Origin: Microcaldota archaeon
GTDB taxonomy: Archaea; Micrarchaeota; Micrarchaeia; Micrarchaeales; CABMGC01
Length of the DNA: 64,000 nt
Direction: 5' to 3'
Assembly: GCA_027334165.1 (NCBI GenBank)
Contig: DAHWXM010000019.1
Location: 1-64,000 of the forward strand
Below the pieces are notes generated by a model. That model was not told the origin of the DNA. It saw only the letters and a program-made list of their open reading frames with translations, and did not search any database. The first letter of the stretch is position 1, and the number at the start of each line of letters is the position of its first letter. Positions 50,075 to 61,512 of the stretch are shown piece after piece. The position numbers and the translations under genes were made by a program.

Positions 50075-50785
50075 ATGATAATACAAAAACCGTACGTGCT
50101 TATAGAGACGGTAAAAACCACACCGGAAGTGACAGTGTTCAAATTCAAGGCGCAGGACAACAGCCGGATTGACTTCGTTCCAGGCATGTTCGCGATGCTG
50201 TTTTACAAGAACCAGGCAACAGGCGAACAGGTAGGCAGAGCATTTTCGATAGCCAACTCGCCTAACTCCGATTACCTGGAGTTCTTCATAGCACTGATAA
50301 ACGGGAGGATGACGTCGAAACTCGCGCAGGCGAAAACAGGGGACGTTTATTACGTGTCCGCCCCCTACGGCCAATTCAAGTTCGCCGACGGCGACAAAAA
50401 GCTCCTATTCCTTGCTGGAGGCACAGGGATAGCGCCGTTTTTCTCCGCGTTAAGGCAGATGAAAGAGCAAGGTCAGGTTGTTGACTGTGCATTGATGTAC
50501 AGCACTAAATATTCAAATGACATAATAATGAAGGAAGAACTGGACAGCCTCACCGACTCACTCAAGACAAAATTGGTGATTACAGTCACGCGTCCGGCAG
50601 ATGGAGAGGTACTGCCTTACGAGACAGGGCATATAGGCCCAGATATGATACTGAAGCACGTGGCCGATGCGAAGGGGCGCGTGTGCTACATATGTGGTCC
50701 GCCGGCATTCGTTAAGGCCATGAAAGAAGGGCTTCTGTCAATCGGAACGCCGCAGGAAAACATAAAGGCGGAGATGTGGGGCTAA
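50075..50785 (+). CDS. FAD/NAD(P)-binding oxidoreductase (ferredoxin-NADP reductase family)
   Basis: 236 residues. The N-terminal FAD-binding barrel has the RAFSIANSP motif (FAD binding) and the C-terminal half the NAD(P) fold with LFLAGGTGIAPFFSALR and CYICGPPAFVKAMKEGL. Such proteins move electrons between NAD(P)H and small carriers such as ferredoxin or flavin. ATG 50075 is the only good start. No iron-sulfur cysteine motif of the PyrK type is seen at the C-terminus, so it is more like a stand-alone FNR or flavin reductase. Overlaps the convergent trm5 by 4 bases. Confidence 0.85.
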   Translation: MIIQKPYVLIETVKTTPEVTVFKFKAQDNSRIDFVPGMFAMLFYKNQATGEQVGRAFSIANSPNSDYLEFFIALINGRMTSKLAQAKTGDVYYVSAPYGQFKFADGDKKLLFLAGGTGIAPFFSALRQMKEQGQVVDCALMYSTKYSNDIIMKEELDSLTDSLKTKLVITVTRPADGEVLPYETGHIGPDMILKHVADAKGRVCYICGPPAFVKAMKEGLLSIGTPQENIKAEMWG

Positions 50786-56773: not shown

Positions 56774-57166
56774 TCATATAAGCCTGGCATTTATGCTGCC
56801 CTCTTTACCGGGCCTGTTTGTGACCATGGCCTTGCCAAGCTCAGTGTCTATCATGGTACCCTTTGTGATTATGTTAAGCCTTGCGAAGTTCCTGTTATCC
56901 TTCGACTCCATTATTGCCTTTATCTTGGTCTTCTTGTATCCATCCTTGGTAAGCAGGTTAGCGAAACCAGCATACATGAGCTTGCTTCTCACGTTGCCTC
57001 CTCGTCCGCGGACAGGCTTTACCTCGTTCTCCTGCTCAAGCTTCGTTGCCACAAAGTAGCCGCCCATCTCGTGCCTTCTCTTGTCTCTCGACTTTATCTT
57101 TATCTTGCCGCTTCCGTTAAGTTTCCTTCCGGATTTTGAATGCAGCTGCGATCCAAATTGACTCAT
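56774..57166 (-). CDS. rps8e: Ribosomal protein S8e
   Basis: Small-subunit protein of archaea and eukaryotes, 130 residues. The sequence GRKLNGSGKIKIKSRDKRRHEMGGYF, EVKPVRGRGGNVRSKLMYAGFANLL, RNFARLNIITKGTMIDTELGKAMVTNRPGKEGSINARLI follows the S8e pattern to the end. ATG 57166 fits a minus-strand CTTTAAAT TATA about 27 bases upstream, so leaderless. First gene of a short operon with the unknown gene after it. Confidence 0.93.
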   Translation of the reverse strand: MSQFGSQLHSKSGRKLNGSGKIKIKSRDKRRHEMGGYFVATKLEQENEVKPVRGRGGNVRSKLMYAGFANLLTKDGYKKTKIKAIMESKDNRNFARLNIITKGTMIDTELGKAMVTNRPGKEGSINARLI

Positions 57167-57212
57167 CAAACTCACGCTAACGATATTGGAATTTAAAGTA
57201 TATGTAGATATA

Positions 57213-57339: not shown

Positions 57340-59064
57340 ATGGTTACGCTTGGCATACACGATGCGCACGATGCAGGTGCTGGCGCCGTTAGTGGGGGAA
57401 GAGTCATAGGCGCAGTTAATGAGGAAAGATTCACAAAACGCAAGAATGATGTAGGTTTCCCGGTAAGTTCCATAAGGTACATCGTGGATGCCGCGGGAGA
57501 CATAGATGACGTAGACAGCGTAGCTGTGCCTTGGATAGGAGGCAGTGCACTGTTTGCACGTATGTTTCCAGGACTTGAGGTTAAAAGAAGGCAGCTATGG
57601 CGCCGCGAGACCGGAAAGCCATCGCGCACCAGCATGAAGCTCAGGAATGTGGCGTTCAGACTCATTCAGGACCAGAAGCCAAAATGGCTTTGGCATCTTG
57701 CGGGAAAAAGCATTGGTGGTTATGCACTTTCAAGGAGGCTCACGCATTCAGGATTGGACAAGGAGATAGTATTTGTTGACCATCACACTGCTCATGCGGC
57801 TGGCGCGTATTATGCATCGGGATTCAAAGAGGCATTAGTTGTAACACTTGACGGGGCAGGAGACGGTCTTAGCGGATCCATATCTATAGGAGATAATGGT
57901 GCCCTCAAGCGCATCAAGGAGTTTAGGGCCAGTGCCAGCCTGGGAATCCTGTACGGCGCGGCGACTGTCGCGTGCGACATGCGCTATAGTGAGGATGAGG
58001 GAAAGCTGATGAGTCTTGCAGCGTACTCATATCCGGAGGAAATAAAGGAGTTGGACAAGATATCCATGTTCGACTCGCACAGGGGAGAACTCGTCTGCCA
58101 TCAGGGTGCAAAATTCGAATTTCTTCTCGCTGAGCACATGAAGGACACATTGCTTTGGAAGTACAGCAGAGAGGCATTCGCATATGCGGTGCAGAGGCAC
58201 GTAGAGACCCAGGTACTGAAGATCGTGCAGCATTACATGAAAGAAACGGGCATACACAACGTTGCTGTTTCCGGGGGGCTCTTTTCAAACATAATAGTGA
58301 ACATGCGGCTAAATGAAATGGATGGCATGAAAAACTTTTTCGTGTTTCCACAGATGGGAGATGGAGGACTTGCGCTGGGCGCGGCTTATTATGTCGACTT
58401 CCTTAAGAATGGGAGGTTCAACACCAAACAAGTAGAGAACATGAACTATGGCCCCGCATACACAAATTCCGAAATAGGAGACGCACTGAAGAAACAAAGG
58501 AAAGGAATCGAGTATGAGGAGATAAAGGACATAGAAAGGTATGCCGCAGACAGAATGGTTGACGATAACGAGGTACTGCTGTGGTTTCAAGGCAGGATGG
58601 AATACGGTCCGCGTGCGCTTGGATGCAGGAGCATACTGTCATTGCCAGGCAACAACGACAACAGGACCAGGATAAACCTAATTGTGAAACGGAGGCCGTA
58701 CTACCAGCCGTTTGCTAGCACGATACTGGAGGAAGACGCGCCGCGGCTGCTGGAGCCGTACAGGGCAGGAACGAAGTTCATGACTATAGGCTACAGGATA
58801 AGAAAGGAGCACATGGCGGATTTGGTTGCAGCATCGCACATAGATGGCACTACGAGGCCGCAGATGCTTGGAGAGGAGAATGGGCCGTACAGGAAGCTTA
58901 TAGAGAGAATAAGGGAGCGCACGGGCATAGGCGCGGTGCTTAACACCAGCCTCAACAAGCACGGAAGGCCCATATCCATGACCCCGGAGGACGCCATATG
59001 GACACTGATGAACACAGGTGCGACGAGCCTTGCGATAGGCAATTACTTTGTAACAAAGACCTAG
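57340..59064 (+). CDS. O-carbamoyltransferase of the NodU/TobZ family
   Basis: Transfers a carbamoyl group from carbamoyl phosphate, via carbamoyl-AMP, to a hydroxyl group of a sugar or natural product. The 574 residues have an N-terminal ATP-binding Kae1-like domain (VTLGIHDAHDAGAGAVSGGRVIGAVNEERFTKRK, metal-binding VDHHTAHAAGAYYASGF, TLDGAGDGLSGS, AVSGGLFSN) and a C-terminal carbamoyltransferase domain with GRMEYGPRALGCRSILSLPG and RPYYQPFASTILEE. Family size is 560-620. Codon use matches the neighbours. A GT-C glycosyltransferase gene follows after a short gap, which supports a role in modifying a cell-surface glycan. Confidence 0.9.
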   Translation: MVTLGIHDAHDAGAGAVSGGRVIGAVNEERFTKRKNDVGFPVSSIRYIVDAAGDIDDVDSVAVPWIGGSALFARMFPGLEVKRRQLWRRETGKPSRTSMKLRNVAFRLIQDQKPKWLWHLAGKSIGGYALSRRLTHSGLDKEIVFVDHHTAHAAGAYYASGFKEALVVTLDGAGDGLSGSISIGDNGALKRIKEFRASASLGILYGAATVACDMRYSEDEGKLMSLAAYSYPEEIKELDKISMFDSHRGELVCHQGAKFEFLLAEHMKDTLLWKYSREAFAYAVQRHVETQVLKIVQHYMKETGIHNVAVSGGLFSNIIVNMRLNEMDGMKNFFVFPQMGDGGLALGAAYYVDFLKNGRFNTKQVENMNYGPAYTNSEIGDALKKQRKGIEYEEIKDIERYAADRMVDDNEVLLWFQGRMEYGPRALGCRSILSLPGNNDNRTRINLIVKRRPYYQPFASTILEEDAPRLLEPYRAGTKFMTIGYRIRKEHMADLVAASHIDGTTRPQMLGEENGPYRKLIERIRERTGIGAVLNTSLNKHGRPISMTPEDAIWTLMNTGATSLAIGNYFVTKT

Positions 59065-59092
59065 TGCAATGCCGGACGACATGTGATCACAT

Positions 59093-60634
59093 ATGCGACA
59101 AAAAAAGGGCTGGATGGCGGGATCTTTCGCAGCGCTCAGGAAACCATATAACCTTGCGCTCATCGCGATAGTAGTGTACGCACTGCTGTACTCCGTTGTC
59201 TTTGTGGGCGGGCCATCATATTACGGAGACGACAGCGTGTACCTTAATTATGCATATCAGGTAGTTCACGGCACTTTTACCGAGCACAGCGGGGATATTT
59301 TCAGTGTGAGACTACTGACCATATTACCTATAGCGTTATTCTATAAGACGTTCGGAGTAGGCTTGATGACGGATTCTGCGTGGGACATAGCTTCGTTTAT
59401 AGGGCTAATAGCCGTGGCATTCCTAATGGGCAAGGAGTTGTACGACGAACGGGCAGGCGTTGTAGCCGCGCTTCTCACATCATTCTTCCCAATGATAGTG
59501 ATGCTCTCCGCAACCCCCAGTGATGACATACCGATGGCATTCGTCACCGCCCTCGCAATGCTGGCGCTGCTTTACGGTGAAAGGAGGGATTCCGGGCGGT
59601 GGTACTTCGCATCGGGCTTGCTGCTACTAGCCTCAGGACTCGTAACTCCCGAAGGTTTCATAATCTGCGTGGTGGCAATGGCATACGTCGCCATAGAGTT
59701 TCTCAGGAAAAGGATTGCCATCAGTGGCACCACGCTTATGCTTCCGGCAGGTGTTGCGTTCGCATTCATGCTTATCGTGTTCGTCAATTCGTTCTATTCT
59801 AACCCGCTCATAACATTCACGCTAAACTCCCATTTCTACAGCGCCGTAGGGGGAAATGATACCATACCTTCAACGAACACGAACCCGATGTACTACATAA
59901 ACGTGATGTTCCCGCCGAACGCGCTTAATTTTTCGGGGTTTTTCTTTTACGCGTTGATTGCCGCGGCCATATATCTTGTTGTGGTACGACCAGATGGTAC
60001 GTACTTCGTGCTTTTCTACTTCCTTGCGGCCTTCCTCTACTTGGAATTTGGACCCATGCACATTTCCCTGCACCCGTTCTCGTACCTTCTGAGTTACAGA
60101 CTCCAGCGGTTTATGACACTCATAGCCGCCCCATTGGCAGTTGCAATAGGCATTGCAGTTTCGGATGTCGCGGCGCGAAGCGGAAAGACGCGGATGCGCC
60201 TGTTTGCGTACGCGCTCCTCGCACTTTTGATCTTCATGATCATATTGAACGCCGCCGCGATAAACCTTACGTGGTATCGTGTGCTTAGCTACGAACGCTA
60301 CGACCAGCTCCAGGCAGCGGAATTCCTTGGCAGGATGCCCAACAGCACGATAATCTATTTCGCAGATGCATATCCGAACATACCGATATACATGGGATTC
60401 AACAACATGAGCAGGTTCAGACCCTACTTCGCACTGACCAACTGCAGTTTCGTTTCGGCGGGAGCGTACGTTGTCGCACCCGCGCTGCCGCAGAACGGGA
60501 TTAACTATTCGAAATTTGCATCCGCATGCGGAGGATGGATGGAGATCAATTACACACAGCCTGATTCGGTGCCTCCGCAGCAGATAGACAACATAGGAGG
60601 CTTCTCTGAACTTGCAGTGTATCGCGTAAAATGA
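59093..60634 (+). CDS. GT-C membrane glycosyltransferase (PMT/ArnT-like)
   Basis: 513 residues with a basic N-terminus then about 11 membrane helices and an outer C-terminal domain of about 110 residues. The first outer loop YYGDDSVYLNYAYQVVHG carries the Asp pair of PMT and ArnT-type enzymes that use lipid-phosphate sugars. The middle contains SATPSDDIPMAFVTALAMLALL, common in archaeal members of the family. Twenty-eight bases after the carbamoyltransferase; together they look like a two-gene glycan-decoration unit. Donor, acceptor and order of action are not known. Confidence 0.78.
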   Translation: MRQKKGWMAGSFAALRKPYNLALIAIVVYALLYSVVFVGGPSYYGDDSVYLNYAYQVVHGTFTEHSGDIFSVRLLTILPIALFYKTFGVGLMTDSAWDIASFIGLIAVAFLMGKELYDERAGVVAALLTSFFPMIVMLSATPSDDIPMAFVTALAMLALLYGERRDSGRWYFASGLLLLASGLVTPEGFIICVVAMAYVAIEFLRKRIAISGTTLMLPAGVAFAFMLIVFVNSFYSNPLITFTLNSHFYSAVGGNDTIPSTNTNPMYYINVMFPPNALNFSGFFFYALIAAAIYLVVVRPDGTYFVLFYFLAAFLYLEFGPMHISLHPFSYLLSYRLQRFMTLIAAPLAVAIGIAVSDVAARSGKTRMRLFAYALLALLIFMIILNAAAINLTWYRVLSYERYDQLQAAEFLGRMPNSTIIYFADAYPNIPIYMGFNNMSRFRPYFALTNCSFVSAGAYVVAPALPQNGINYSKFASACGGWMEINYTQPDSVPPQQIDNIGGFSELAVYRVK

Positions 60635-60715: not shown

Positions 60716-61225
60716 ATGAGATTTGCAAAACTAGTACTTGACAGGGTAGACAGGATAGTGCCTTTTCAGCGCGCGTACGCGCACTGTGACATCCCGTGTG
60801 GCATATACGACCCCCACATGGCCCAGTTGGCGGCTCACACCGTTATAAGGATGGACATGCTAATAGCCGATGCGATGAAAAACGGGGCGGATGATGCGGA
60901 GGGGAAGAACAAGATAGTCAGGTATGTAAGCATCAAGGAACAGCACGCAGAGATATGCAAGCATGAAGTTCGGGTACTGTGGGGAGATTACTTCAAGCCG
61001 GACCACGCGAAAGCACACCCGGAACTCAACGACCTCGTATGGAACATACTCAAACTGGCGTCAAAGGCCAAGCAGAGCACTGATGTAAAGGCAGGCGAGG
61101 AACTACTCGAGAATGTGGAGAAGCTTGCAGAGATATTCTGGAAGACAAAGGGAATAAGCACATACAGAGCCCAGGCACCCTACCCTACAGACCGTGAAAT
61201 GGTGTACCCGAAGGTAGGCGCATGA
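60716..61225 (+). CDS. sodN: Nickel superoxide dismutase (Ni-SOD)
   Basis: Removes superoxide using nickel. Residues 1-22 (MRFAKLVLDRVDRIVPFQRAYA) are a propeptide; cleavage before His23 would expose the nickel hook HCDIPCGIYD with His23, Cys24, Cys28 and Tyr31 in the order H-C-X3-C-X2-Y of Streptomyces SodN. The four-helix bundle continues (HMAQLAAHTVIRMDMLI, IKEQHAEICKHEVRVLWGDYF). At about 147 mature residues it is longer than the typical 117. ATG 60716 is selected over the track start at 60653 to give a bacterial-like propeptide. The maturation protease gene overlaps it by 4 bases. Ni-SOD is best known from bacteria, so its presence in an archaeon is of note. Confidence 0.92.
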   Translation: MRFAKLVLDRVDRIVPFQRAYAHCDIPCGIYDPHMAQLAAHTVIRMDMLIADAMKNGADDAEGKNKIVRYVSIKEQHAEICKHEVRVLWGDYFKPDHAKAHPELNDLVWNILKLASKAKQSTDVKAGEELLENVEKLAEIFWKTKGISTYRAQAPYPTDREMVYPKVGA

Positions 61226-61512
61226 CGCTCCTGCCGGTCTCTATATACAAGGTGAAGGACAACAGCATGATTCCTACCATACTGGATGGAGATTACGTAA
61301 TTTCCATCGGATGGTACGGCAACATAAGGCGCGGCGACATCGTTGTCCTTCGGCATCCTGCCGGAGCCATGAGATTAGTAAAGCGTGTAGAAAGGGTAGA
61401 TGCAGATTCCGTGTATGTTGTTGGGGACAATCGTGCGGAGAGCGAAGACAGCAGAAACTTCGGTGCGGTGAAGAGACAGTCGCTTTTGGGGAAGGTAGTT
61501 GCGGTTATATAG
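61222..61512 (+). CDS. sodX: Ni-SOD maturation protease SodX (signal peptidase S26-like)
   Basis: Small serine peptidase that removes the SodN propeptide so that nickel can bind. The 96 residues are a minimal S26-type fold: active-site serine in KDNSMIPTILDGDYV (Ser15), the general-base lysine in MRLVKRVERVD (Lys54), and the closing box VVGDNRAESEDSRNFGAV. No membrane helix is present, unlike true signal peptidases, in keeping with a cytosolic processing role. ATG 61222 overlaps the sodN stop (ATGA), showing coupled translation of enzyme and protease. Confidence 0.88.
   Translation: MTLLPVSIYKVKDNSMIPTILDGDYVISIGWYGNIRRGDIVVLRHPAGAMRLVKRVERVDADSVYVVGDNRAESEDSRNFGAVKRQSLLGKVVAVI

Follow-up and report, generated by a model that had tools for sequence, protein, structure and literature searches.

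The window, by which we mean the whole 64-kb stretch of DNA analysed, carries a gene for a nickel superoxide dismutase (Ni-SOD), sodN, together with the gene of a putative maturation protease, sodX. Very probably, sodN and sodX form a two-gene operon that provides the only superoxide defence that can be detected in a micrarchaeon, a SodX-matured nickel enzyme of long residence that stands in for Fe/Mn-SOD. The sodN gene spans 60716..61225 on the + strand, from ATG 60716 to TGA 61225, and encodes a precursor of 169 aa. The sodX gene follows on the + strand at 61222..61512, from ATG 61222 to TAG 61512, and encodes an S26-type protease of 96 aa. The two genes overlap by 4 bases, the ATGA at 61222-61225, and both reading frames are intact. 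Family E-values of 1e-45 to 1e-48 for SodN and 1e-19 for SodX lie far beyond chance. The original prediction, an archaeal Ni-SOD/SodX pair comprising a nickel hook behind a 22-residue propeptide and an overlapping SodX-like S26 peptidase, is borne out by the translations and by the profile searches.

In these searches, SodN scores 153.5 bits against PF09055 (cut-off 25) and 164.1 bits against the curated NCBI model TIGR02753 sodN (cut-off 90). Its N-terminus reads MRFAKLVLDRVDRIVPFQRAYA up to the predicted end of the propeptide and HCDIPCGIYD thereafter. The propeptide (60716..60781, + strand) has 22 residues and ends in A-Y-A. The hook (60782..60811, + strand) comprises residues 23-32 of the precursor and contributes His1, Cys2, Asp3, Cys6 and Tyr9 of the mature enzyme. 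The motif H-C-x-x-P-C-G-x-Y after a propeptide is thus present, and the hook is seen in all 89 unique Ni-SOD sequences. His1, Cys2, Asp3, Cys6, Tyr9 and Tyr62 are invariant among 33 aligned sequences, and Lys64 is kept in 32 of them, with arginine in the remaining one. Residue -1 is alanine in 33/33 aligned homologues and residue -3 is mostly alanine or valine, a pattern that fits the A-x-A rule followed by S26 peptidases at the cleavage site. The AlphaFold2 model of SodN, built with 33 homologues, has a mean pLDDT of 91.6 and predicts the four-helix-bundle fold of a Ni-SOD subunit. It resembles the Ni-SOD crystal structures 1t6u and 1q0d with TM scores of 0.89–0.94 by target length and a Foldseek E-value of 8.7e-9. 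By homology within this family, SodN would bind nickel, assemble as a hexamer and dismute superoxide. The propeptide is modelled as a short helix (residues 2-14). The maximum 19-residue hydropathy at the SodN N-terminus is only 0.18, so the leader has no hydrophobic signal-peptide core, suggesting that both SodN and SodX are cytosolic.

SodX scores 70.4 bits against TIGR02754, ‘nickel-type superoxide dismutase maturation protease’ (cut-off 63.25). It also passes TIGR02227, the general model for signal peptidase I, with 67.4 bits (cut-off 47), and its assignment therefore rests on TIGR02754 together with genomic position. The catalytic dyad, Ser15 and Lys54, is invariant in all 51 aligned SodX sequences. 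The AlphaFold2 model, built with 18 homologues, has a mean pLDDT of 90.8 and a fold like that of type I signal peptidases. The maximum 19-residue hydropathy is 0.72, which leaves SodX with neither a transmembrane segment nor a membrane anchor. In 92 of the 109 loci, sodX lies directly after sodN on the same strand; several of the other loci end at a contig edge or hold SodX nearby in another orientation.

A maturation pathway can be proposed from the homology of this pair, with cleavage, nickel loading and activity modelled on the Streptomyces pair. Pro-SodN would be made in the cytosol with its 22-residue propeptide blocking the hook. Translation starting within the shared ATGA would yield SodX, a soluble peptidase of the S26 Ser/Lys type, which would cut after A-x-A and free His1. 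The freed N-terminus would then bind nickel together with Cys2 and Cys6. Nickel may be supplied, at least in part, by a NicO nickel/cobalt permease encoded elsewhere in the genome, where we find one strong match of 274 bits (L111, G000:C2:28255-29094). The assembled enzyme would dismute superoxide, and the resulting peroxide would pass to peroxiredoxins, of which the host genome encodes two strong AhpC/TSA members and two weaker family members.

The host is a micrarchaeon. The retrieved relatives are headed by MAGs with the label Candidatus Micrarchaeota (61-71% identity), and these relatives, the tree described below and an archaeal ribosomal protein S8e in the window all agree with the archaeal assignment made from the sequence. 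The assembly has 816 kb in 21 contigs and is 82.9% complete with 0.53% contamination. Within the 83% of the genome that is available, neither an Fe/Mn-SOD nor a superoxide reductase is found, with controls behaving as expected, which answers the question whether Fe/Mn-SOD is absent as far as this assembly reaches; at 82.9% completeness, the organism could have a second SOD that the assembly lacks. A [NiFe]-hydrogenase, as another user of nickel, is likewise not found in the host genome.

The distribution of the two enzymes in the phylum suggests that Ni-SOD replaces Fe/Mn-SOD. Ni-SOD occurs in 52 of 295 genomes and Fe/Mn-SOD in 166. Only one genome (G228) has both, where 29 are expected by chance (Fisher p 1.7e-20), and none does among genomes at least 90% complete, where 12 are expected (p 3.4e-10); both p-values are too small, because the Fisher tests take genomes as independent and related genomes are not. 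The alternation extends into the genus of the window, with Ni-SOD in G034, G050 and G128 and Fe/Mn-SOD in G160 and G226. Strong NicO matches are found in 11 of the 295 genomes, eight with Ni-SOD and none with Fe/Mn-SOD. Most Ni-SOD genomes have no recognisable NicO, so the permease is not a general requirement and other routes of nickel entry must exist. In G228 (L125, L126), SodX is convergent to sodN at a distance of ~600 bp and the two form no operon; this genome is possibly in transition between the SOD enzymes.

Micrarchaeal surveys report Fe-SOD (PMC5864196; PMC8773360), an unrelated protein family with another metal and presumably the same physiological job as the Ni-SOD described here. 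Our counts correct the picture of Micrarchaeota as users of Fe-SOD (PMC5864196), since two families of the window's order often carry Ni-SOD and almost never both enzymes. They do not agree with the supposed rarity of Ni-SOD in archaea either, as it is also found in Aenigmatarchaeota, in MAGs labelled Nanoarchaeota or soil Euryarchaeota and in other archaeal MAGs. Archaeal Ni-SOD, inter-domain transfer and the exclusivity of nickel and iron enzymes are already published. Lutacidiplasmatales carry Ni-SOD (PMC9287336), and it is reported in Marine Group II (MGII) and in one to three taxa of every other archaeal group, DPANN included (PMC10783094). MGII clades have either Ni-SOD or Fe/MnSOD (PMC10783094), and inter-domain transfer is the subject named in the title of Sutherland et al. 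2021, cited in PMC10783094. The Lutacidiplasmatales and MGII enzymes are archaeal Ni-SODs like that of the window, but from a different archaeal phylum, and the micrarchaeal case offers a natural replicate of the nickel-or-iron choice in small-genome organisms. The increment may lie in two points, that Ni-SOD/SodX is present in Micrarchaeota at the scale of a clade and that it excludes Fe/Mn-SOD almost perfectly; neither was found in the literature searched, a body that included few subscription papers.

Comparison with the Streptomyces SodN/SodX system (1q0d, 1t6u; S. coelicolor SCO5254/SCO5255) shows the same nickel hook, Tyr9, Tyr62, Lys64 and four-helix fold, at about 41-44% identity by structure alignment. 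A SodX peptidase is also encoded next to sodN in Streptomyces; in the window, unlike Streptomyces, sodX comes after sodN with the 4-base overlap. S. coelicolor has sodF alongside sodN under Nur control (PMC3919588), whereas no Fe-SOD is found in the window genome. Two features of the protein itself differ. The first is a C-terminal β-hairpin extension (residues 149-165, 61160..61210, + strand), seen in the model and the alignment, with strands 149-153 and 161-165 modelled at a pLDDT of about 95. The Nonomuraea and Streptomyces Ni-SODs end before it. The extension is common to the aligned sequences from archaea, Patescibacteria and Chloroflexi and is also present in a Novosphingobium homologue, judging by its sequence. 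Long Ni-SODs occur in cyanobacteria as well, where most have 155-164 aa (PMC2234264). The original prediction took the longer mature enzyme as an adaptation after transfer, and this spread among bacteria speaks against it.

The second difference lies around the axial ligand. In Streptomyces Ni-SOD, Glu17 and Arg47 hold the axial ligand His1 (PMC5722923). SodN of the window has alanine at the Glu17 position and histidine at the Arg47 position and lacks the His1-Glu17-Arg47 hydrogen-bond support, which is a feature of the Streptomyces enzyme and not a definition of the whole Ni-SOD family. Among the 33 aligned members, position 17 is Ala, Ser or Gly and position 47 is His or Tyr; none has Glu17 or Arg47. 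Arginine at mature position 23 is invariant in all 33, and the Novosphingobium homologue shares Ala17 and Arg23. Catalytic tuning may therefore differ from that of Streptomyces Ni-SOD. We put forward, tentatively and with rather low confidence, that the Ni-SODs of DPANN, Thermoplasmatota and Patescibacteria form a subtype of their own. In it, another support (the invariant Arg23, and His at the position of Arg47) would take the place of the His1-Glu17-Arg47 relay, and together with the additional hairpin this would change how the axial histidine switch and the subunit assembly work. The subtype would have spread through archaea and bacteria with small genomes, displacing Fe-SOD in one lineage after another. 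As its second coordination sphere appears to differ from that of the only crystallised enzyme, mechanism models based on Streptomyces may not carry over.

The same replacements in 33/33 aligned members, with the invariant Arg23 in their stead and the matching Novosphingobium residues, could also point to an enzyme of changed chemistry, whose hook binds nickel but which dismutes superoxide more slowly, acts in a reductase-like manner or stores nickel. We regard this as very unlikely, because the direct ligands, Tyr9 and Tyr62 are all kept, as is Lys64 but for the single arginine, and because Ni-SOD excludes Fe/Mn-SOD across genomes, as expected if the two do the same job. A genuine Ni-SOD in place of Fe/Mn-SOD is the preferred reading.

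The history of the pair was addressed with a maximum-likelihood tree of 89 sequences, in which the bacterial sample is thin (drawn from the best 80 genome matches) and no MGII sequences are included. The window SodN falls inside a cluster of 42 rows with support of 93/91. All members are micrarchaeal by label or kinship except two labelled Marsarchaeota. The Ni-SODs of Patescibacteria and Chloroflexota form separate groups among the archaeal ones. Patescibacteria (Levy-, Woyke- and Curtissbacteria; L060, L073, L074, L076, L078) have their own clade with support of 99/98; their enzymes are 48-58% identical to the window SodN, with the same hook, the same C-terminal tail and sodX directly downstream. 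Soil ‘Euryarchaeota’ EA sequences make a clade separate from the micrarchaeal one. A single clade of all archaea is mildly rejected (p-AU 0.035), consistent with a likely older exchange between domains, in either direction, somewhere in the Ni-SOD family. Two MAGs labelled Micrarchaeota, L043 and L066, have Ni-SODs outside the main micrarchaeal cluster, and L066 groups with the Nanoarchaeota-labelled L079. One clade of all Micrarchaeota, these two included, is not rejected (p-AU 0.118), and a second acquisition is accordingly unproven.

The original prediction was that the pair had been horizontally acquired and then adapted. A recent gift from a bacterium into the genome or genus, later ameliorated, draws some support from the mild rejection of a single archaeal clade and from G160 and G226, where an Fe/Mn-SOD is present and Ni-SOD is undetected, so that Ni-SOD was gained or lost within the genus. 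It is nevertheless highly improbable. Among the best 80 loci, where relatives lie at 49-71% identity, the nearest are all micrarchaeal, from 71% downwards, and bacterial homologues branch outside the 42-row cluster. Two genomes of the same genus (G034 and G128) share with the window the gene order amino-acid kinase, OTCase, S8e, sodN, sodX. The GC contents of sodN (51.6%) and sodX (50.2%) are close to that of the 64-kb window (49.9%), and codon use and GC3 of both genes are inside the range of 56 window ORFs; the earlier remark that there is no obvious break in base composition holds. Micrarchaeal clustering, shared gene order and native GC and codon use together argue for a long-standing resident rather than a recent import, and this is the best reading of the window sodN. 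Placement in an archaeal cluster is largely what had been named beforehand as evidence against horizontal acquisition. The pair would thus be long resident in Micrarchaeota, within a Ni-SOD branch of DPANN, Thermoplasmatota and Patescibacteria that may have replaced Fe/Mn-SOD lineage by lineage. An artefact of assembly or binning, with a bacterial contig placed in an archaeal bin, is conceivable for a draft in 21 contigs but has a negligible chance, given the archaeal S8e near the pair and genes collinear with relatives on the same 64 kb, the low contamination and the recurrence of the finding in dozens of independent MAGs.

Carriage by a virus or plasmid was considered and rejected: scans of viral contigs and of a phage collection gave no relative, and BFVD has no fold match at E 0.001. 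Among plasmids, only Novosphingobium and Nonomuraea megaplasmids carry relatives.

In the window, S8e is located at 56774-57175 and a topoisomerase gene from 61807 onward. The stretch between S8e and sodN (57340-60634) encodes a carbamoyltransferase with the domains Carbam_trans_N/C and a membrane protein resembling PMT_2 glycosyltransferases, neither of which is present at this place in the same-genus genomes G034 and G128. The Fe-SOD regions of G160 and G226 contain none of the window's neighbour genes, and a swap with Ni-SOD at the same site is unsupported; matches to the window carbamoyltransferase in these two genomes are only moderate (33-47%). A flavin/NAD oxidoreductase (NAD_binding_1, FAD_binding_6) is found at 50075-50782, ~10 kb from sodN. 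Such an enzyme is encoded a short way upstream of sodN in several other genomes of micrarchaea (L005, L007, L012, L014, L017), and a functional link between this oxidoreductase and sodN is possible.
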